From Peloplasma aerotolerans (GTDB taxonomy: Bacteria > Bacillota_I > Bacilli_A > Acholeplasmatales > Acholeplasmataceae), in contig NZ_JASCXW010000004.1 of the NCBI RefSeq assembly GCF_030012175.1, forward strand, positions 1 to 64,000: 64,000 bases of DNA, in the 5' to 3' direction. A program made the position numbers and the translations under genes. The notes under the pieces were generated by a model, which saw only the letters and a list, made by a program, of their open reading frames with translations, searched no databases and had not been told where the DNA came from. Shown piece by piece: positions 45,445 through 64,000 of the stretch. Each line of letters opens with the position of its first letter. Within the stretch, counting starts at the first letter, position 1.

Positions 45445-45494
45445 GTTACTCGCATGATAAAATATATATATACATGATAGAGGAGATACTTTTA

Positions 45495-47354
45495 ATGAAC
45501 CCTAATAAATATTTAGAGGACTATATCATTTCATGCAGTCACTTATATGGAATGATTCATAAACAAAGGGTAGAAACTCTGTTTCATCTTCATCATCCAA
45601 ATCAAAAATTAACATTTGAAAAAATAGATCAAGACTATCTGTTAAATAACTTTGTATTTTTCAAAAAAGATTTTTTTATTATGGAAGCAATCTATATCAA
45701 TAACGAGATGTCAAAACATTTAGCTGAAACAAATGGTAAACCCTATTATGTTCCAACTCTTGAGGAACTTTTGTCATATAAAAATGAGTTTAGAGATGAA
45801 TATACTGATGAAGAAAATAGACTTTATATTTACTTATCGAAAGTGAAAAATGAAGTGGTTGCATCCAATGTGATTGATGATATTATTGGCCTTATACAGG
45901 TTGGTTCTACAATTGAATCTGTGATAAGTCGTATAAGTGATTATAATATTGAACCATCAGATTTTGAACACATCATACCAGTGATTATAAATATTGCCAA
46001 CAACACAAGGACTTGGGTAAATAATGGTTATACAGCAAATGAACTCGTTTTGATGCATACGAATAAGAATAAAATTGGTAGAAACAGTTTATGTCCGTGT
46101 GGAAGTGGCAAAAAATACAAATACTGTTGCATCAATAAACTTTTTATTGGTGAGGATAATCAAGATTTACACAATATAGATGTTTTTAAATTGTCTGATC
46201 AGGACAAATCAAAAATAAAGAAAAATTTGATAAGAGAAATGGATCGCATTCAGTTTTATATTGTTTTACTGAAACAGCCTTCTATGCGTGAACTTATTGA
46301 TGATTTCATGTCTAAAGATATTGAACAGATTAGTCAATATGACCCAAATTTGTTAATGGGAGTTTTAGTTGAGATTCTTTTTAAAAAGAACAAAAAGAAA
46401 TTAACAAGTTCTATCCAAGAGAAAGTATATAGAACTTTAAGAATTTGGACTAAGAAAAGCTGGATTCCAGAAATTTATGATGAAATCATCTATCTCCTAA
46501 ATCAGTCTACGGCTCCATCTAATGAATTAATAATTAATAATTTATTATCTTTGTATAGCACACAAGATTATACTCCAAAAGATCAAATTCCAATGAATAA
46601 ACCTTTTGATTTTTTGAAGAAACGACAAGAAAACACTATCTATGATGAGTATATGGATGAACAATTCGAAAATCTTTCTGTTGATATATATCGATCAACA
46701 TTAAAAAATATTCCTGTACACTTGTATAACTTATTATTTTTATATCCTTTGTCTGTAGCTGTACTAAGATTGTTACTAGACTTTACTGGCATAAAAAATG
46801 ATGAGAAACTACTTGAAGCAATCATATACGCTTTTGAAAAAAGTAGAGATGAAGCTTTAAATAATCCTAGTGAGGATTTTTATAGTATTGGTGATAATCG
46901 AATATATATTTTATCACTTGATTCTTTAGCATATATCTATAAACAAAATGGACAATATAAGGATGCTTATCTTCTTTATGAAAAAATACTAAAATATGAT
47001 TTAAGTGATAGATTTATGGCTAAAGAGTCAGTATTAATTTGCTATGTCTATTTAGGTATGATGGATAAGCTGATGTCATCTATCGTAAATCTTGATGATG
47101 AATCTCCATATAAAAAATTGCTCATGCTTTATGCCCAAATTGATAATGATCAACCATATGCTCAAACTTATCTTTTAGCCAATGATAAACATGAATCTAT
47201 TCTTAATGCTATATGTTATGGCTATGACCCTTTAAGTGATGATTTATCTGAAAATGATAAATTCTTTTTAGATGATTTTTATCCATTATTTACTTATAAC
47301 AAGAAAGTTATGGAAAAGTTGAAATTATTACATGTTGAAAATATACTGATGTGA
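45495..47354 (+). CDS. SEC-C zinc-binding protein with TPR-like C-terminus
   Basis: A 619-residue protein. The SEC-C motif GRNSLCPCGSGKKYKYCC (near residue 197) binds zinc, as in SecA tails and YecA-like proteins. The N-terminal part is helical. The C-terminal 250 residues hold repeat-like helices (SLAYIYKQNGQYKDAYLLYE) resembling TPRs. Its role is unknown; SEC-C proteins often contact ribosomes or secretion machinery. ATG 45495 follows GAGGAG; the earlier ATG 45474 covers that site. Confidence 0.75.
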   Translation: MNPNKYLEDYIISCSHLYGMIHKQRVETLFHLHHPNQKLTFEKIDQDYLLNNFVFFKKDFFIMEAIYINNEMSKHLAETNGKPYYVPTLEELLSYKNEFRDEYTDEENRLYIYLSKVKNEVVASNVIDDIIGLIQVGSTIESVISRISDYNIEPSDFEHIIPVIINIANNTRTWVNNGYTANELVLMHTNKNKIGRNSLCPCGSGKKYKYCCINKLFIGEDNQDLHNIDVFKLSDQDKSKIKKNLIREMDRIQFYIVLLKQPSMRELIDDFMSKDIEQISQYDPNLLMGVLVEILFKKNKKKLTSSIQEKVYRTLRIWTKKSWIPEIYDEIIYLLNQSTAPSNELIINNLLSLYSTQDYTPKDQIPMNKPFDFLKKRQENTIYDEYMDEQFENLSVDIYRSTLKNIPVHLYNLLFLYPLSVAVLRLLLDFTGIKNDEKLLEAIIYAFEKSRDEALNNPSEDFYSIGDNRIYILSLDSLAYIYKQNGQYKDAYLLYEKILKYDLSDRFMAKESVLICYVYLGMMDKLMSSIVNLDDESPYKKLLMLYAQIDNDQPYAQTYLLANDKHESILNAICYGYDPLSDDLSENDKFFLDDFYPLFTYNKKVMEKLKLLHVENILM

Positions 47355-49248: not shown

Positions 49249-50559
49249 ATGGGTAAATATTTTGGTACAGATGGTATTAGAGGGGATGCTACATCGAAAG
49301 TAACTCCAACACTTGCATATAGCGTAGGAAACACATTAAGAAAAGCATTAAATATGAACCAACTTGTTATTGGTATGGATACAAGACCAACTTCAGCTAT
49401 GTTATCTGTTCGGCTTGCACACGGTGCAATCATGGGAGGTATGGAAGTTTGGAATGCATATGTCTTAAGCACACCTATGATTGCACATTACTCAAAACTA
49501 AGAGGTATTGTAGGTGCAATGATTACAGCATCTCATAATGTTCATACAGATAATGGGATTAAAATCTTTGTTAAAGGTTTTAAGACAACTCCTGATGAAG
49601 AAGCAAAAATTGAAAAGTTGATGGCTGCTAATCAAGTCATTAAACTTCCGATTCATACCGTAAAAAATGGTAATGATGATGTTAAAATTCAATACTTACA
49701 AATTTATAAAAAACTCAAATTAGAAAAAATAGATTTAAAAGCAATCTTTGATACTGCCAATGGGGCTACATCAAGTATTACAAAAGAGATTTTAGACCTT
49801 TATGTACCAAATGCTTTACAAATCTATAAACATGAAGGAATAAATACATTAATCAATGATCATTGTGGCTCTACGCATATGGAAACCATGATTAAAGAAG
49901 TATTAAAAAAGAAATATCCAGTTGGTTTTAGTTTTGATGGTGATGGAGACCGCATTCAAGCAGTTGATGCTACTGGTAGAATTTATGATGGTGACATGAT
50001 TGTTTATATGATTGCCAATCATATGAAACAAAATGGCACCTTAGCAAATAATGGTGTTGTACTAACAAAAATGAGTAACTTAGGCATTATTAAAGCTTTA
50101 AAAGATAAGGGTATTGATGTTGTTTTATCCGATGTTGGTGATAAAAATGTATCACTTGCTATGGAAGAACATGGATATTGTATTGGTGGTGAATCTTCAG
50201 GGCATGTGATCTTAAGCCAATTTATTCATACAGGTGATGGTTTATTAGTTTCTATGTATTTAATGAAAATACTCAATGATACTAAAAAATGGTTTGATGA
50301 ACTCACAAAAGATGTTAAACTATATCCGATTGAACATGTAAATATTTCTGAAGTTCCAAAAGAAACTTTAAAAAAAGATTCTGTTCAAAACTATTTAATT
50401 AAATTAAAAGAAAAATTGGGTGAAGATTCTCTTCTCTTAGTTAGACCAAGTGGCACCGAGAACTTGATTCGCGTGACAGTCAGTCATCCGGATGAATCAA
50501 TGGTTAAAAATAGCACAAAGGATCTTGTATCATTTATCCTTAAGGAGGGTGAAAAGTAA
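49249..50559 (+). CDS. glmM: Phosphoglucosamine mutase
   Basis: A 436-residue alpha-D-phosphohexomutase. MGKYFGTDGIRG opens, Ser95 in TASHN carries the phosphate, FDGDGDR binds magnesium, and GGESSGH and RPSGTENLIRV complete the family set. It converts glucosamine-6-P to glucosamine-1-P. It is joined to glmU by a one-base overlap (GTAATG). Confidence 0.95.
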   Translation: MGKYFGTDGIRGDATSKVTPTLAYSVGNTLRKALNMNQLVIGMDTRPTSAMLSVRLAHGAIMGGMEVWNAYVLSTPMIAHYSKLRGIVGAMITASHNVHTDNGIKIFVKGFKTTPDEEAKIEKLMAANQVIKLPIHTVKNGNDDVKIQYLQIYKKLKLEKIDLKAIFDTANGATSSITKEILDLYVPNALQIYKHEGINTLINDHCGSTHMETMIKEVLKKKYPVGFSFDGDGDRIQAVDATGRIYDGDMIVYMIANHMKQNGTLANNGVVLTKMSNLGIIKALKDKGIDVVLSDVGDKNVSLAMEEHGYCIGGESSGHVILSQFIHTGDGLLVSMYLMKILNDTKKWFDELTKDVKLYPIEHVNISEVPKETLKKDSVQNYLIKLKEKLGEDSLLLVRPSGTENLIRVTVSHPDESMVKNSTKDLVSFILKEGEK

Positions 50560-51938: not shown

Positions 51939-51948
51939 TATCACTATA

Positions 51949-51981
51949 GATAGTTGCGATCCTTTGCAACTATCTTTTTTT
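51949..51981 (+). terminator. Terminator of glmSMU
   Basis: GATAGTTGC (51949-51957) pairs with GCAACTATC (51966-51974), followed by TTTTTTT. Confidence 0.9.
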
Positions 51982-52012
51982 ATGTTCTTTTATATCAATA
52001 GATATATCGTGA

Positions 52013-52018
52013 TATAAT
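52013..52018 (+). promoter_or_regulatory. Promoter -10 of the regulator/synthase pair
   Basis: TATAAT preceded by TG one base upstream (TGATATAAT), an extended -10 about 57 bases before the ATG at 52076. Confidence 0.5.
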
Positions 52019-52075
52019 AAATTAACAACAAAAATATCTTTGTTAGTCTATGATAAAAGAGATGTAGGAGATAAT

Positions 52076-54055
52076 ATGAACCCTTTAGTAATCCCTATCT
52101 TATTAGAAAAAGAAGTGAATCGTCATACTTATCTCATTATAAAAGATGATATATCGATATTAATCGACCCAGGTGCTAAACACCATGTGCCGCTTCTTTT
52201 AGCAGCATTAGAAGAACATATTGAAATCTCTAAACTATCTTATATTGTTTTACAATCTAATGATTACTTAAACTTAACATCACTAGAAGACTTAAATCAA
52301 AAGGGTTTTCATGGAAAAGTGATTGTTAATGAAGTAGGTGTCCCCTATTTAGAAAACATGATCTCTAATGATATTGTTACGATTGAATCACTAGATTATA
52401 AACTTAAATTTGGAGATGGACAAACACTAGAGTTTATTTCTATGCCTTTTTTGCCTTTTCCTGAATGTTATGTAAGTATTTATATTGAAGAGGGCTTTTT
52501 GTTTTCTGCACATCTTTTTTCTCATCATACAAAAAATCAAAAGGAATTGATTAATTCAATCAATCAATTCCATGAAAGTGTACTCCCTAGTATTGAGTTT
52601 GTCAGACAAGCAGTTAAGAAAATAAAGAAACATAATATTATTTCTATTTATCCGCGTTTAGGTCTTGTGATTCATAAGCTTATGATCCCTGATGTTTATC
52701 AAGGCATCTTATCCTATGATTTTTATAATTCCAATCAAGTTGTTGAACGCAAAAATAAAAAGAATGTTTCTTATAACTATGAAACGATTTGTAATCATAT
52801 GCTAAAGAAACTAGAAACGAAATACCATAGATACGAAATATTAGATGCTTTTAAAGACTCTGAGATTTATTTGGAGCTTTATCCTCATATTGAAATAGAG
52901 TCTACAAAGCTTGCAGGCTATAAATTATGGAATACTTTTTTTGATACGATTTATCAAAAAAAGGGTGTTAGTTGGCTAACACTCCTAGAATCTGTTGTTA
53001 AAAAGTATCATAAGTCATTTAACATTCAGTTACCTGCAATCTATAAGACAACATCATATCTTCAACAATCAAAAATAGAGATCTTAAATGTCGAAAAGAA
53101 AAACCTTGAACAAGAAGTTGAAGAACTATCCTCAAAAATAACAGAGACAACCGATAAACTTCTGCGTTGTTCAATCACCAATCTTTATAATCAAAGATTT
53201 ATGATTGGTCATTTATTAAATAACTTAGATCAACCTTTAGCTGAAAACAAATCAAGATGTTTGGTCTTGATACATATTGATAACTTATTAGAAATCAATA
53301 AAAAATATGGTGTTCATAAAGGTGATGAGACCTTAAGGAACTTAGTTCATATCATTAATAACATGAAACAAGAAGATGCTTTATTATTTAAACAAAATGG
53401 ACCTGGTATTTTTGTTTATCGTCACGAAATTGATGAGAAGTCTTTAACAGCGCTCGCTGTTAAATTAAGTAATCTCGTTAAAAAGTCAGAACTCTTTATA
53501 GAGCCGATAACGATAACGATAAGTATTACCTCATCATCTGAACTAAATACGCGTTATGGCCTTGATGAACGTGTTAATCAGTTTATTGAACTTGCACAAA
53601 TGCGACTAGAAAGAGCGAAACTCAAAGGTAAAGATCAAATCCTTGATCAACATACAGATGAAAAAACATTTACTGAAGGGATTATTCTTTTGGTTGATGA
53701 AGATGAAACTTATCAAAACTTAATGGTTAAAATCTTTGATCGAATCCATTATCAAGTGATTATTGCTAAAGATATCTATGATGCTTATGATCAATTAGAA
53801 ACTCATAATATTGATGTCATTATCTCTGAGATTAATTTAACAAAACTTGATGGTTTTCAACTTAAACAAAAAATCAATCAATCTCAAAACTTTAGAAACA
53901 TCCCATTTATTATGGTAAGTCACCATAAAAATTTGGATGTTGTGACACGTTGTAATTTATTAGATGTTGACTTTATTTTACAAAAGCCTATTATACCAGA
54001 AGAATTAATTGGACATATTAAGCGTATTCGTGACCAGAAAGTGATGATATCATGA
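52076..54055 (+). CDS. MBL-fold/GGDEF/REC regulator, all catalytic motifs degenerate
   Basis: A 659-residue cytosolic protein with three signalling domains. Residues 1-200 match a metallo-beta-lactamase fold (ILIDPG) but the HxHxDH motif is replaced (LQSNDYLNL) and the later ligands are lost (FSAHLFS). A coiled coil spans about 333-362. A GGDEF-like domain (about 363-525) has NGPGIF instead of GGDEF. A receiver domain (about 535-655) keeps Asp541 and Lys637 but has Glu585 at the phospho-acceptor position. It therefore looks like a binding-only regulator, possibly fixed in the active state. ATG 52076 follows TAGGAG. It overlaps the synthase gene by four bases and probably controls it. Confidence 0.8.
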   Translation: MNPLVIPILLEKEVNRHTYLIIKDDISILIDPGAKHHVPLLLAALEEHIEISKLSYIVLQSNDYLNLTSLEDLNQKGFHGKVIVNEVGVPYLENMISNDIVTIESLDYKLKFGDGQTLEFISMPFLPFPECYVSIYIEEGFLFSAHLFSHHTKNQKELINSINQFHESVLPSIEFVRQAVKKIKKHNIISIYPRLGLVIHKLMIPDVYQGILSYDFYNSNQVVERKNKKNVSYNYETICNHMLKKLETKYHRYEILDAFKDSEIYLELYPHIEIESTKLAGYKLWNTFFDTIYQKKGVSWLTLLESVVKKYHKSFNIQLPAIYKTTSYLQQSKIEILNVEKKNLEQEVEELSSKITETTDKLLRCSITNLYNQRFMIGHLLNNLDQPLAENKSRCLVLIHIDNLLEINKKYGVHKGDETLRNLVHIINNMKQEDALLFKQNGPGIFVYRHEIDEKSLTALAVKLSNLVKKSELFIEPITITISITSSSELNTRYGLDERVNQFIELAQMRLERAKLKGKDQILDQHTDEKTFTEGIILLVDEDETYQNLMVKIFDRIHYQVIIAKDIYDAYDQLETHNIDVIISEINLTKLDGFQLKQKINQSQNFRNIPFIMVSHHKNLDVVTRCNLLDVDFILQKPIIPEELIGHIKRIRDQKVMIS

Positions 54056-56901
54056 TTGATATTATTTATGGTGTTTTCGCCTTTTTTGGTTTAATCATTA
54101 TTGTGTTTATATTACTTATTCTGACACAAAAAAGAAGATTAAACAAAAAAGAACTCAAAGTTAAGAAAGCTAGGGATTATCTCTTTAAAAAATATATAGA
54201 CCAAGAAGACGTTGACATTCCTGTTTCTAAACGTTTCTTTTTTGATGCTTTAATAGATGTAGATGAACAAATCCATCTAGATCCTGTTATTAGAGAAAGC
54301 ATTATTGAAGATTTCAAAGATTCTAGATTTATAAAAAAACAAAAAAGAAACATTAATGCTTTAAGTACTTTTAAAAGAAGAATTGCTGTTTACTATATTT
54401 CAAAACTAAGAACTGAAGAAGCATATGAAATGCTTTTCAAACGTTTTAATAAAGAACGAAATGAAGCAGTTAGATTAAGAATCGTAGCGCACATGCGCTA
54501 CGGATTAAAAGATGAGTATCTTTATCCAATCATTGAGTCATTAGAAAAGAGTACAGATCAATATCAAGACAGGTTATGTACTTTATTAGGAAGTAACTAT
54601 AAAAGAATCTATGATACGTTTTCAACTTATAGTGACGATCACAGATATGAAATTGTTTTAGGCTTGATTCGCATAGGATCATTTCATGCTGATGCATTTT
54701 TAATCGAATACATGCAAGTAAGACTTGAATGGATTCTTCAAACAAGTCCTTATGAAGTATCTAAAAATGAATTCTTAAAGGAAAATATTTTAAAAAACTT
54801 GTTAAAGCATACTCCAGAAATCTTAAGTGTTGAGAAATATTTAGAACATGATGATCCAAAAATAAAGGCTTATGCGGTTTCATCTTTAACTAATCGCGCT
54901 AGCATTAAATGCATCAACCGCATTATTGATGGATTTGATGGTAGTGAAATAGATGAAGTCAGAGTCAAAACATTATCTAAAATGGTTTTAAATGATCGTT
55001 CCTTTTTAGATCACCTATTAAGAATTTATGTTGAGTTAAAGCCTCATCAAAAAGAAATGTTAACGAAGGTGTTTTCTGATCGAATTGATTATATTATTCT
55101 AGATTTATTTAATGCTCAAAAGAAATTATTAAAAGAAATTTTAGAACTTGTCTTAAATCAAAATATTATAGAACCTATCATAGATTTCTTAAATGAAAAT
55201 AAGAATGAACAAATAGAATCATTTTTGCTTGAGATTATCAAGTCAAAAATGAGTCTTAATGATGAAATGACGAAAGAATTTAGAATTTATCTTCATCAAG
55301 ATATATTAATTAAAATGGGATTACAAAGCTTAACACCTGTTATTGAAAAAAAAGAAAAACCTCCGATTGAAAAAACAAAAGTTTATTGGATGATTAAGTG
55401 GATTGTCTTTTCTTTATTATTATTTCCACTGATTTATATCTTTAGATTAGGTGATACGATTTTTAATTTAAGTATGACTGAAATCATTAATGGGTTTTTA
55501 ATAGATGTCAATGTTTACCTAATCTTTTATTTCTTGACGATTAATACAATATACATAATCTTATTTCTCTTAGCTTTGTTAGCTTCTAAAAAACAAGTTG
55601 CTTTATCCAAGACTAGAAAGTATACTTTATTATTCTCTGAACGTTTATTACCAGGTATATCAATTATCGCTCCTGCATATAATGAAGAGGTAAGTATTAT
55701 AGAGAGTGTAACGAGTCTTTTAAATCTTCAATATCCAATTTATGAAGTAGTTGTCGTCAATGATGGATCTAAAGATTCTACTTTAAGTATCTTAATTAAG
55801 CATTTTAACTTAGAAAGAAAGCATCCATCTCATATCAATCATTTAAATACGAAAAAGATAAGAGGCGTCTATACGACAAAAGATATTCCTAACTTAGTTG
55901 TTGTTGATAAACAAAATGGTGGAAAAGCTGATGCTTTAAATGTTGGTATCAATGTGAGTAAACAACCTTATGTTTGCGGTATTGATGCAGATAGCATTTT
56001 AGAAGGTGATGCTTTATTAAAGCTTGCATCATCAATGCTTGATGACACTAAACCTTATGTTGCCTTAGGGGGCAACATCTATCCAGCCAATGGATTTACC
56101 TTCGATAAAGGAAAAGTAGAAAAAAGAAGTATTCCTAAAGAAATGATTTGTAGATTTCAAACCATTGAATATTTAAGAGCTTTTACAAGTGGTCGTATTG
56201 GTTGGAGTGAACTCAGAAGCTTAATGATTATTTCTGGTGCTTTTGGTTTATTTCAAAAAGAAACTTTAATCGAAACTGGTGGTTATTTAACCAGTAGCAG
56301 CAAGCTTAAAAAAGATACAGTTGGTGAAGATATGGAGCTTGTTGTTAGACTGACTAGACAAGCATTAGAGAAAAAAGATCCATATCGTGTCTCTTATGTT
56401 TATAATGCGTTTTGTTATACTGAGCTACCAAGTGACTTAAAGACACTATTAAAACAGCGTAATCGTTGGCAAAGAGGTTTAATTGATATTCTTTCTTATC
56501 ATAGAAAGTTATCCTTTAATCCTAAGTATAAACAAATAGGATTAATAGGATATCCTTATTTCTTTATCTTTGAGTTTTTAGGACCGTTTTTTGAAGCACA
56601 AGGATATTTGATGTTGATGATTGCATTAATCTTGGGATTACTTAATCCTGTTATTATATTAGGTATCTTTGGAGCATCTATTTTATTTGGTGTTGTGATT
56701 TCCTTATCATCAATATTTATGTCAGAAAAAGAACTTGTGATGATGAATAAGAAAGAAACGTTTGTGATGATTTTTTATGCAATCTTTGAAAACTTTGGAT
56801 ATCGACAATTAATTAGTATGCATCGAGTGTTTTCTACCTTTAGTGCACTTAGAGAAAGTGGCACATGGGGTACTCAAAAACGTAAAGGATTTAAATCTTA
56901 A
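54052..56901 (+). CDS. HEAT-repeat membrane glycosyltransferase (GT2 polysaccharide synthase)
   Basis: A 949-residue protein. An N-terminal membrane helix (about 5-25) is followed by about 400 residues of HEAT-like helices (EAVRLRIVAHMRYGL, KIKAYAVSSLTNRA). Membrane helices near 445-520 lead to a processive GT2 domain: ISIIAPAYNEE near 534, VVNDGSKDS, GIDADS near 643, GEDMELV near 757 and QRNRWQRG near 800, as in cellulose and poly-GlcNAc synthases. C-terminal membrane helices end it. UDP-GlcNAc from glmSMU upstream is a plausible donor. The HEAT arm is a likely docking site for the overlapping regulator. Confidence 0.85.
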   Translation: MIDIIYGVFAFFGLIIIVFILLILTQKRRLNKKELKVKKARDYLFKKYIDQEDVDIPVSKRFFFDALIDVDEQIHLDPVIRESIIEDFKDSRFIKKQKRNINALSTFKRRIAVYYISKLRTEEAYEMLFKRFNKERNEAVRLRIVAHMRYGLKDEYLYPIIESLEKSTDQYQDRLCTLLGSNYKRIYDTFSTYSDDHRYEIVLGLIRIGSFHADAFLIEYMQVRLEWILQTSPYEVSKNEFLKENILKNLLKHTPEILSVEKYLEHDDPKIKAYAVSSLTNRASIKCINRIIDGFDGSEIDEVRVKTLSKMVLNDRSFLDHLLRIYVELKPHQKEMLTKVFSDRIDYIILDLFNAQKKLLKEILELVLNQNIIEPIIDFLNENKNEQIESFLLEIIKSKMSLNDEMTKEFRIYLHQDILIKMGLQSLTPVIEKKEKPPIEKTKVYWMIKWIVFSLLLFPLIYIFRLGDTIFNLSMTEIINGFLIDVNVYLIFYFLTINTIYIILFLLALLASKKQVALSKTRKYTLLFSERLLPGISIIAPAYNEEVSIIESVTSLLNLQYPIYEVVVVNDGSKDSTLSILIKHFNLERKHPSHINHLNTKKIRGVYTTKDIPNLVVVDKQNGGKADALNVGINVSKQPYVCGIDADSILEGDALLKLASSMLDDTKPYVALGGNIYPANGFTFDKGKVEKRSIPKEMICRFQTIEYLRAFTSGRIGWSELRSLMIISGAFGLFQKETLIETGGYLTSSSKLKKDTVGEDMELVVRLTRQALEKKDPYRVSYVYNAFCYTELPSDLKTLLKQRNRWQRGLIDILSYHRKLSFNPKYKQIGLIGYPYFFIFEFLGPFFEAQGYLMLMIALILGLLNPVIILGIFGASILFGVVISLSSIFMSEKELVMMNKKETFVMIFYAIFENFGYRQLISMHRVFSTFSALRESGTWGTQKRKGFKS

Positions 56902-60820: not shown

Positions 60821-61528
60821 ATGAACGAACAACAACATGAGCATGAAAGCGAAATTAGCTTACTTGATTTATACAAAATTCTTAGAAACAATCTCGTTTT
60901 AATTTTAACTCTCACTTTTCTTGTAGGTGCGATTGCTGGTGCTTATGCATTTTTAGTCGCTGATCCTAAATATAAATCAAATGCATACGTTATGGTTCAA
61001 GTCCAAGTTGAAAACCCAGGTGGTAATTCATTTGACTTGATTAATGCTCAAAGACTTTTAGCAACTGCTGCTGATTTAATTTCGATGCCTGTTGTTTTAG
61101 ATAAAGTGATTGAAGAGCTAGAACTTGATATGACACCAAATCAATTAAAACGAAATCTTACCGTGAGTTCGAGCAATACGAGCTACTTTATCAATGTCAG
61201 TTATATATCAGAAGACAACGTCCAATCAAAAGAGGTAGTCAATGCTGTGATTAGTGCTGCTATTGAATTTGCTGATGAGAATGTCTTGATTCTAAAAGAT
61301 AACATCATCCGCACAAGTTATGCTGATAATGGTGTCTATGATTCACCTAATAAGGCTTTATATGTCGTTATCGGATTAATCTTAGGTGGTATTTTAGGTG
61401 TTGGTATTGCTTTTATTAAAGAAATGTTTAATAATACGTACCGATCTAAAGATCAACTAGAAGCTGCTTTTGGCATCCAGGTTTTAGGTGTAATTCCTGA
61501 ATTTGAAGTCAAGGAGGGCAAAGTATGA
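60821..61528 (+). CDS. Wzz/CpsC-type chain-length adaptor
   Basis: A 235-residue membrane protein with two membrane helices (about 27-47, LVLILTLTFLVGAIAGAYAF, and 175-198) around an extracellular loop. EISLLDLYKIL is the conserved start. It works with the next-gene tyrosine kinase to set polymer length. It overlaps the kinase by four bases (ATGA). Confidence 0.88.
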   Translation: MNEQQHEHESEISLLDLYKILRNNLVLILTLTFLVGAIAGAYAFLVADPKYKSNAYVMVQVQVENPGGNSFDLINAQRLLATAADLISMPVVLDKVIEELELDMTPNQLKRNLTVSSSNTSYFINVSYISEDNVQSKEVVNAVISAAIEFADENVLILKDNIIRTSYADNGVYDSPNKALYVVIGLILGGILGVGIAFIKEMFNNTYRSKDQLEAAFGIQVLGVIPEFEVKEGKV

Positions 61529-62256
61529 AAAAGAGACTAAAAATATTTAATGGTGAAAATGTTCAAAAATATGATTATCTTGTCACGAAAGAACAACCAC
61601 TTTCTTATACAGCTGAATCATTTCAAAAAGTTTTGATTAATCTTGATTATGCGAATATTGATAACGAATATAAAGTGATTCAATTTACATCAACATTAGC
61701 ATCAGAAGGTAAATCAACATTTATTTCTAATTTATCTTATTTATTAGGACAAAAAGGAAAGAAAGTTATTTTATTAGATCTAGATTTAAGAAAACCTAAA
61801 ATTCATCGTGTTTTTAATTCAACCAATAGAAATGGCTTAACAGATTATTTGTCAGGTAAAATTGAGTATAAAGAAATGGTACGTCATTCTAATGAAGTTG
61901 GAGTTGATTATATCGTTGCTGGAGAAAAGACAACTGCAGTTGTTAATGTTTTAGAAGCGAAAAAACTTAAAGAACTCATTGCTGAACTTCGTGAAGCCTA
62001 TGATTATGTATTGCTTGATACACCTCCAGTTATTGCTGTATCAGATGCATTATATATTGCAAAAATAGCAGATGGTGTCATCTTTGTTGTTGCCCAAAAT
62101 GTTGCTAAAAAAACATTGGTGAAAGAAGCAGTTGAAACACTAAGGAAAAATGAGATTAATATCTTAGGCACTGTTTTGACTCAAGTGAACCTTAAGAGTG
62201 GAGAATATGGCTATGGATTTGACTATAGCTATAAATACGAAGACGGCGAAGAATAA
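61525..62256 (+). CDS. Bacterial tyrosine kinase (CpsD/YwqD type)
   Basis: A 243-residue BY-kinase. Walker A is ASEGKST with Lys63, Walker A' is LLDLDLRKPKIHR, and LDTPP is Walker B. The end carries the Tyr cluster (YGYGFDYSYKYE) that is autophosphorylated. It needs the upstream adaptor for activity and is reversed by the next phosphatase. Confidence 0.93.
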   Translation: MKKRLKIFNGENVQKYDYLVTKEQPLSYTAESFQKVLINLDYANIDNEYKVIQFTSTLASEGKSTFISNLSYLLGQKGKKVILLDLDLRKPKIHRVFNSTNRNGLTDYLSGKIEYKEMVRHSNEVGVDYIVAGEKTTAVVNVLEAKKLKELIAELREAYDYVLLDTPPVIAVSDALYIAKIADGVIFVVAQNVAKKTLVKEAVETLRKNEINILGTVLTQVNLKSGEYGYGFDYSYKYEDGEE

Positions 62257-62945
62257 TGATTGATATTCATACACATATACTTCCAGGTGTTGATGATGGA
62301 TCTCCATCACTTGAATCATCGATTGAAATGATTAAACAAGAAATAAATGATGGTGTCGAGTCAATTATTTTAACACCTCATGTTCAATCGCATGTTCAAA
62401 AAGTAGATCATAAAGCATACAACACCATTTTCGAAAACTTAAAATCTGAAGTATTAAAACAAGGTTTAAAAATCAATTTATATCTAGGTGCAGAGATCAA
62501 TTATCGTTCTCATTTAGAACCTGATTATCAAGCCATGTCTTTAGCTGGCTCTAGATATATTCTAGTTGAATTTTCACCAATGGTTGAAACACCGATTGAA
62601 GATATTGTTTATGATATCTCAAGAAGTGGATTTATTCCTATTGTTGCACATATTGAAAGATATCAGTATTTACAGTTTGATGATTACTATAAAATCAAAA
62701 ATACTGGTGCTTTGTTACAAATGAATGCATCAGCAATCTTAGGTTTGGAAAAGATTGTTAATAAGAAGTTAGTTCATAAGCTTCTTAAAGAAAAACTCAT
62801 CGACTTTGTAGCAACCGATACACATCATCCAGAAAAAAGACCACCAAATATGAAGGCTTGCTATGATTTATTAAAGAAGAGTTATGATGAATCTTATTTA
62901 AATGAGATCTTTTACTTAAATCAAAAGAAAATTTTAAGCGATTAA
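62256..62945 (+). CDS. PHP-type tyrosine phosphatase (CpsB/YwqE)
   Basis: A 229-residue PHP phosphatase: MIDIHTHILPGVDDG, LTPHVQSH, GAEINYR, HIERYQYL and ATDTHHPEKRPP are its metal-binding blocks. It dephosphorylates the kinase's Tyr cluster. The kinase stop TAA overlaps the start (TAATG). A terminator follows. Confidence 0.93.
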   Translation: MIDIHTHILPGVDDGSPSLESSIEMIKQEINDGVESIILTPHVQSHVQKVDHKAYNTIFENLKSEVLKQGLKINLYLGAEINYRSHLEPDYQAMSLAGSRYILVEFSPMVETPIEDIVYDISRSGFIPIVAHIERYQYLQFDDYYKIKNTGALLQMNASAILGLEKIVNKKLVHKLLKEKLIDFVATDTHHPEKRPPNMKACYDLLKKSYDESYLNEIFYLNQKKILSD

Positions 62946-62949
62946 CTTA

Positions 62950-62982
62950 TGTTGCCAGGTTTACTTGGTGACATATTTTTTT
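62950..62982 (+). terminator. Terminator of the adaptor/kinase/phosphatase operon
   Basis: TGTTGCCAGG (62950-62959) pairs with CTTGGTGACA (62964-62973) with two G-T pairs, followed by a T-run. Confidence 0.65.
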
Positions 62983-63007
62983 GCATTTCTTGTGATTTGC
63001 TTATAAA
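62979..63007 (+). promoter_or_regulatory. Promoter of the PAS gene
   Basis: TTTTGC (62979-62984) and TATAAA (63002-63007) have a 17-base spacer, 25 bases before the start. Confidence 0.4.
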
Positions 63008-63031
63008 AAGTAGTAAAGTGGAGGGGATGCT

Positions 63032-64000
63032 ATGGATCAAGGAGTTTTTAAGAATTTATTAAAACATGCAACCTTTGGTTATTCTGTTTATCATTTAAAA
63101 CCTTCAGTTAAGCAATTAACATCCAATGATCGGTTTAATCAAATCATTAATCAGTATGACCAACAATTTAAATCTAATCAAAGTACTAACGCTTCAAGCC
63201 CTTTTCTTGAATTTTTAGGATTGCTTATAGGCAACAAACAACAAGAAACACATATTTATCTTCATCAAAAATCTTATAAGGTGTCTCTAGCATATGATGA
63301 AGAATATCTTTATGTTTACTTATATGATCAAATGGAATCATCAATACAATATGATTTATTGACACCTGATCAAATAAAATATCAAAATTTCTCATTCCAT
63401 AATCTATCCTACATATGGGAAACTGATACAAATGGTTTATTTACATATGTTGACCCAATTGTTTTTGATATACTAGGATATCATCCTAATGAAATCGTTG
63501 GGCAAAAACATTTTTATGATTTATTCCATGAAGAAGATAAAGAAACAGTTATAAAAATGGCATTTGAGACATTTGCCAAACATGAGACATTTGGGAATGT
63601 CATGAATAGAAATATATCAAAAACAAATCAAACAAAGTGGTTACTCTCAAGTGGTGTTCCAAAGCTAGATGAAAAAGGAATTCTTATCGGATACCGAGGT
63701 ATCGATACTGATATGACACAATGGATTTTGTCCTCAGAAAAAGCAGAAGAATTAGAGGATCGTTTTTTGACTGTGTTTAAACATAGTCCATTAGGCATGA
63801 TTCAATATGATCAGTTTGGACAGCTTGTTTTATATAATAAGAAGTTCTTAAAAATGATTGATGTTAAAAATCAAGATTTATTAAAGATGCATGTCTTAGA
63901 TTTTTTAGACAATCGTCTAAAAATGACGTTTGAGCTCTCACAAGATGGAACTGCAAATCGAGTCCGTGGAAACATGATAAATCCTTTTAAAGGGCTAAAA
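63032..64000 (+). CDS. PAS-domain sensor, cut by the window end
   Basis: The frame is open from ATG 63032 (AGAGGGGATGC-like binding site GAGGGG) to the window end, 323 codons. About the first 115 residues are unrecognised. A PAS domain follows (about 120-235): YIWETDTNGLFTYVD, VFDILGYHPNEIVG, and GYRGIDTDMT. A second PAS begins near 245: VFKHSPLGMIQYDQFGQLVLYN. The output domain lies outside; GGDEF or kinase are both possible. No membrane helix is seen in the visible part. Confidence 0.8.
   Translation, partial: MDQGVFKNLLKHATFGYSVYHLKPSVKQLTSNDRFNQIINQYDQQFKSNQSTNASSPFLEFLGLLIGNKQQETHIYLHQKSYKVSLAYDEEYLYVYLYDQMESSIQYDLLTPDQIKYQNFSFHNLSYIWETDTNGLFTYVDPIVFDILGYHPNEIVGQKHFYDLFHEEDKETVIKMAFETFAKHETFGNVMNRNISKTNQTKWLLSSGVPKLDEKGILIGYRGIDTDMTQWILSSEKAEELEDRFLTVFKHSPLGMIQYDQFGQLVLYNKKFLKMIDVKNQDLLKMHVLDFLDNRLKMTFELSQDGTANRVRGNMINPFKGLK

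Follow-up and report, generated by a model that had tools for sequence, protein, structure and literature searches.

A three-domain protein with lost catalytic sites, paired with a HEAT-armed GT2 synthase in wall-less bacteria

The window, the 64,000-nucleotide stretch of Peloplasma aerotolerans DNA analyzed here (contig NZ_JASCXW010000004.1), encodes two adjacent proteins, P1 and P2, that we consider probable subunits of a single exopolysaccharide synthase module, with P1 as its catalytically dead regulatory subunit. P1 has lost catalytic and I-site residues, is under purifying selection, and is obligately linked to a membrane synthase with intact catalytic motifs; some relatives retain the metal site that the window's protein lacks. 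The features are collected in Table 1.

Table 1. Features of the P1–P2 locus, in window positions
Feature	Position	Strand	Remarks
Intrinsic terminator past glmU	51948..51975	+	12-bp stem, T run; -15.9 kcal/mol, z -6.0
Candidate P1 promoter, TTTATA-18-TATAAT, extended TG	51989..52018	+	consensus match only
P1	52076..54055	+	659 aa; degenerate ODP-MBL, helical linker, degenerate GGDEF, degenerate REC
P1 ODP-family metallo-beta-lactamase (MBL) fold, metal ligands lost	52118..52657	+	Pfam PF19583; ligand table; ODP fold match
P1 GGDEF fold, NGPGI instead of GGDEF (codons 53396-53410), no I-site	53171..53635	+	
P1 receiver (REC) fold, Glu585 (53828-53830) at phospho-acceptor position; D541, S615, K637 kept	53684..54019	+	
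P2	54052..56901	+	949 aa; one TM helix, HEAT-like solenoid, two further TM helices, GT2 catalytic domain, TM helices at the C-terminus
P1/P2 stop/start overlap ATGA, 4 bases	54052..54055	+	
P2 HEAT-like alpha-solenoid arm	54142..55341	+	AF2; HEAT_2 in 12/14 homologues
P2 GT2 catalytic domain; NDGS, DADS, GED, QRNRW motifs intact	55651..56478	+	

Gene layout and domain architecture

Both genes are intact open frames. ATG 52076, preceded by AGGAG at 5 nt, is the P1 start codon, and the longer TTG frame at 52040 is unneeded; P2 starts at ATG 54052, within the P1 stop codon. The region holds as many matches to the candidate-promoter consensus as expected by chance, and no known RNA element or c-di-GMP riboswitch reached the gathering threshold in 44–64 kb of the window. 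A plasmid-borne module was rejected, with no plasmid match at E 1e-20.

Pfam places an ODP MBL domain at P1 residues 15–194 (E 1.8e-20), a GGDEF domain at 366–520 (E 1e-15), and a receiver at 537–648 (E 2e-17). The AF2 model (mean pLDDT 84.4, pTM 0.40) resolves these three folds with good local confidence within four blocks; the domains are reliable, whereas at this pTM their arrangement is not. Foldseek returned ODP proteins and several GGDEF proteins as the best PDB matches, and the N-terminus fits best to the ODP structures 6qwo, 6qrq, and 6r9n (Thermotoga, Treponema).

None of the three folds keeps its canonical site. With ODP structures as template, the six ligands H, D, D, H, D, and H correspond to S61, D63, L65, P127, H146, and L195 in the window's P1: D63 is the sole match. 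The ODP-type MBL fold is present; the full set of six iron ligands is not. The GGDEF motif reads N-G-P-G-I (residues 441–445) and the metal Asp is replaced by H400, leaving P1 with neither feature of an active diguanylate cyclase (GG[DE]EF and the metal Asp). Its RxxD I-site is also absent—positions 432 and 435 are Q and A, and variable in homologues—and the equivalents of the guanine-contacting Asn and Asp, N408 and D417, are retained. In the receiver, Glu585 occupies the position held in RcsC by the phospho-acceptor Asp, and the other residues of a phosphorylatable receiver (D541, E542, S615, and K637) are in place. P1 is a soluble protein that lacks an I-site and carries ODP-MBL and receiver domains. 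The ligand table, NGPGI, Glu585, AF2, and Foldseek together confirm the preliminary description, in which the MBL metal site, the GGDEF motif, and the receiver Asp were lost with the folds kept; the I-site loss is a point that it missed.

The AF2 model of P2 runs from a TM helix through a solenoid and two more TM helices to a GT-A domain, which is followed by TM helices at the C-terminus. Pfam assigns residues 537–809 to GT2; the D-D-D/GED-QxxRW motifs and TM helices are present, and the motifs are invariant across 29 aligned homologues. Hyaluronan, cellulose, and chitin synthases are the best structural matches to the model. The best named family is PgaC/IcaA (TIGR03937), with a score of 112.7 bits that falls below the equivalog cut-off of 422.3 bits. 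Judged from these motifs and the model, P2 is probably an active processive GT2 synthase with a beta-glycan, GlcNAc-type product. Its arm is an alpha-solenoid of ~20 helices at residues 60–421 (AF2 pLDDT 87, pTM 0.84). The HEAT_2 profile matches 12 of 14 P2 homologues (best E 2e-8) and is sub-threshold in the window's P2; the arm thus qualifies as HEAT-like by its helical solenoid and, through homologues, by profile. Both this arm and the four-base overlap stand as first described. HEAT-less GT2 homologues of ~470 aa occur in other families of the class (L171, L145, and L147–L151).

Conservation and genomic setting of the pair

The pairing noted in the preliminary description recurs in ~45 genomes of Acholeplasma/Izemoplasma-like bacteria, always as neighbors. 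The window's genus carries orthologues throughout, and further ones are present in Paracholeplasma vituli, Acholeplasma oculi, and Izemoplasma-like and other Mycoplasmatota lineages; these homologues exclude an oddity specific to the window. P1 and P2 homologues are same-strand neighbors in every listed pairing, and the two are adjacent in every locus long enough to contain both. The exact ATGA overlap occurs in 35 of 54 listed pairings (a few loci are counted twice, and one split P1 fills two rows) and is missing at some loci. Within the genome samples, P1 and P2 are either both present or both absent, the exceptions being contig-end fragments and one partial 51-residue match. No P1 (E up to 1e-30) was found outside its own class in a sample of 392 genomes; a canonical-motif ancestor elsewhere in the phylum was therefore set aside. 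A stop or frameshift, which may be genuine inactivation or an assembly error, breaks P1 or P2 in a few relatives: L043/L110 (G013), L045 (G031), and L049/L104 (G036).

P1 is under purifying selection across all three dead domains. Against a 97%-identical orthologue, dN/dS is 0.12 for MBL, 0.05 for GGDEF, and 0.06 for REC, and values of 0.015–0.12 hold across all P1 domains having more than one substitution. The noncatalytic motifs SEINL, GPGI, and SH.K are invariant over 30–70% divergence. Selection and motif conservation together reject decay of P1 into a pseudogene.

The preliminary description would have been refuted by homologues that keep canonical motifs; for the GGDEF and receiver domains, this refutation fails. 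The GG[DE]EF acid pair occurs in 0 of 46 P1 homologues. In an initial GGDEF comparison, L001, L002, L006, and third-gene proteins served as canonical controls, and five of the eight own-genome control loci were left aside. At the I-site, only 3 alignment rows have Arg at position 432 and only 5 have Asp at position 435. At the receiver acceptor position, 45 of 47 aligned rows carry Glu; the two with Asp are L169 and L170, the most divergent members, which show further receiver losses. The MBL domain departs from this pattern, with all six ODP ligands retained in five relatives (L116, L118, L119, L160, and L163). In the P2 tree, whose root is unsure because of a very long outgroup branch, these five group as a single clade flanked by site-lost and MBL-less lineages. 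We infer an ancestral intact ODP site, followed by several losses. Three divergent members have the GGDEF–REC half only, beside a full HEAT-GT2 protein, which marks this half as the minimal partner and conserved output core. The N-terminal domain is a replaceable sensor, probably for O2 or iron: the five ligand-complete relatives probably still use it as such, and the window's lineage has probably lost that function. With the oxygen site intact in some, lost in others, and the sensor domain gone in a third group, the relatives are a natural series for testing how a signaling enzyme turns into a structural subunit.

In the window, the UDP-GlcNAc synthesis genes glmS, glmM, and glmU precede P1, with a strong terminator between that makes a single transcript with the pair unlikely. 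The three genes lie directly upstream of the pair in four genomes of two genera and are unlinked in most; because of this and the terminator, UDP-GlcNAc is the favored donor only. MurA above cut-off was found in none of 23 tested pair-bearing genomes, in which weak matches are probably the related AroA. In wall-less cells with no MurA, UDP-GlcNAc has few other large uses, which speaks for a GlcNAc polymer but falls short of proof. The window's glmM (49249–50559) has a dN/dS of 0.23 among close relatives, vs. 0.04 for glmS and 0.09 for glmU, and is ~50% identical to the same-cluster glmM of L090/L153, vs. ~68–70% for its neighbors. Upstream of glmS, 45474–47354 encodes a 626-aa protein with a SEC-C motif alone recognized. 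In sister species, the pair is downstream of threonine dehydrogenase and glycine C-acetyltransferase genes; these two, together with methylaspartate (glutamate) mutase and fumarase genes, make up the amino-acid degradation region around it at L042, L043, L044, L046, L047, L048, L050, L051, and similar loci.

The pair resides in a rich c-di-GMP background. Each of the 23 tested pair-bearing genomes holds 7–25 GGDEF domains, and a PilZ domain was detected in none of them. Among 296 sampled genomes of the class, the pair is confined to those that encode other GGDEF proteins (at least 2 GGDEF domains; 24 of 24 vs. 107 of 272, P 9e-10), a comparison in which the 107 were counted by eye and phylogeny is uncorrected. 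A PAS-GGDEF cyclase gene with an apparently intact GG[DE]E directly follows P2 in at least 8 related loci and is absent beside the window's pair. Together with the GGDEF complement, these loci leave the initial proposal of control without enzymatic signaling unsupported as stated. For comparison, 14 GGDEF/EAL proteins but only three response regulators have been reported in A. laidlawii (PMC2408644). At 60821–64000, near P1–P2, Wzz-like, BY-kinase-like, and CpsB/CapC genes precede one for a 702-aa PAS-GGDEF-HD (HD-GYP-like) protein, and this last gene runs to about 65141 on the contig; with its c-di-GMP domains, the group is a second locus of polysaccharide control in the window.

Proposed mechanism and rival explanations

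Because the two genes are obligately linked, P1 is most naturally read as a noncatalytic regulator of the synthase. That much of the scaffold-type regulator first proposed stands; a bare scaffold is harder to reconcile with the five relatives that keep the ODP ligands. Under the proposed mechanism, P2 would polymerize and export a beta-glycan, with UDP-GlcNAc as probable substrate, and its cytosolic HEAT arm would offer the docking surface for P1. The pseudo-GGDEF/pseudo-receiver half of P1 would be the conserved output module that docks there, and P1 would control P2 allosterically. Glu585, being acidic, may substitute for aspartyl phosphate and hold the receiver in one state. Glu in receivers can be phosphomimetic, though a Glu in place of the receiver aspartate is not always so (PMC12632262); the latter point, and the Asp of the two most divergent members, weaken the phosphomimic idea. 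The ODP domain would be a former sensor whose di-iron O2-binding site is kept in some relatives; with the metal lost in the window's lineage, it may now be structural or otherwise liganded. Contact between the proteins, the direction of control, the effect of Glu585, the nature of the polymer, and former sensing by the ODP domain are all predictions, and linkage and overlap would also fit stoichiometric co-expression without contact. We hold as speculative the fuller proposition that such dead three-domain regulators sit on the synthase's HEAT arm and use neither phosphotransfer nor cyclase activity nor c-di-GMP binding at an I-site, and that oxygen gates polymer synthesis directly in the di-iron-intact relatives.

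The main rival is that P1 receives c-di-GMP through a surface other than the I-site: it would be a receptor of the YdaK/PssE/PelD type, with a noncanonical site in the dead GGDEF domain, and c-di-GMP from a partner cyclase would activate P2. Genomes rich in GGDEF domains with no detectable PilZ need another receptor, the pair is confined to GGDEF-bearing genomes (with the phylogeny caveat given above), P2 is followed by a motif-intact cyclase gene in the at least 8 genomes noted, and N408 and D417 are kept; the RxxD I-site that known receptors require is nevertheless missing, and the window's pair has no diguanylate cyclase (DGC) neighbor. We regard this reading as possible and the less likely one. 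Contact between a DGC and a synthase without diffusion, as described for DgcJ–NfrB (PMC8669469) and DgcK–YdaK (PMC7064775), would by analogy fit both this rival and the regulatory-subunit model that we favor.

Two further explanations fare less well. P1 could remain a redox or O2 sensor whose ODP domain gates P2 with some other metal or ligand bound, its metal loss being complete in appearance only; its selected fold and the full ligand set of five relatives would allow this. Five of six ligand positions are replaced in the window's P1, and the three MBL-less members stand beside a full HEAT-GT2, so we consider this unlikely. That P1 is instead a decaying pseudo-regulator, its frame kept merely to bring ribosomes to P2 via ATGA, would agree with the loss of every catalytic motif and with how common such overlaps are, but it is very improbable against the low dN/dS, the three invariant motifs, and the loci at which the overlap is absent. 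The evidence as a whole thus leaves P1 most probably a dead regulatory subunit of the P2 synthase.

Comparison with known systems

Dead GGDEF proteins that switch exopolysaccharide (EPS) synthases are established, and these precedents qualify the earlier suggestion that such a regulator would be unusual. Bacillus subtilis YdaK (ydaJKLMN) is a dead GGDEF protein that is required for EPS and is encoded, and co-localizes, with the putative glycosyltransferases YdaM and YdaN (PMC5422440); it obtains c-di-GMP by direct cyclase contact (PMC7064775). In Listeria monocytogenes, the degenerate GGDEF protein PssE (pssA–E) is needed for c-di-GMP-induced EPS production by the PNAG/cellulose-like GT2 PssC (PMC4125290). 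PelD, of Pseudomonas and the Gram-positive Pel systems, is a regulatory subunit of dead domains with a degenerate GGDEF, to which Brevibacillus and others add an inactive SDR/epimerase domain (PMC7112168).

P1 shares with these proteins an inactive GGDEF domain beside an EPS synthase and differs in lacking the RxxD I-site. YdaK has TM helices and an essential I-site, whereas P1 is soluble; PssE binds c-di-GMP (Kd 0.79 uM) through an I-site-containing GGDEF; PelD joins a GAF domain to an I-site GGDEF, serves a different synthase, and has neither receiver nor ODP domain. The ODP of Thermotoga maritima and Treponema denticola, whose six ligands five P1 relatives share, is a stand-alone chemotaxis O2 sensor, whereas the corresponding domain of the window's P1 is ligand-less and fused to GGDEF–REC. 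P2 resembles the processive GT2 enzymes PgaC/IcaA, hyaluronan synthase, and chitin synthase in motifs, membrane topology, and fold, and is set apart by its extra N-terminal HEAT-like arm of ~360–400 residues and, from PgaC/IcaA, by its sub-equivalog score. To our knowledge, YdaM and YdaN have no HEAT arm.

A partial literature search found no published work on the P1–P2 pair. Acholeplasma-like bacteria have many c-di-GMP enzymes, with no PilZ detected in the tested genomes and no described c-di-GMP output found; the conserved P1–P2 pair offers a concrete candidate for that output end. P1 also supplies a pseudo-receiver for which a probable partner is defined, in a field in which the switching of bacterial pseudo-receivers has been called a mystery (PMC12632262). 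Set against YdaK, PssE, and PelD, the new features here are an ODP–GGDEF–REC protein, its missing I-site, a synthase partner armed with HEAT-like repeats, strict pairing of the two in wall-less bacteria, and relatives in which the oxygen site persists.
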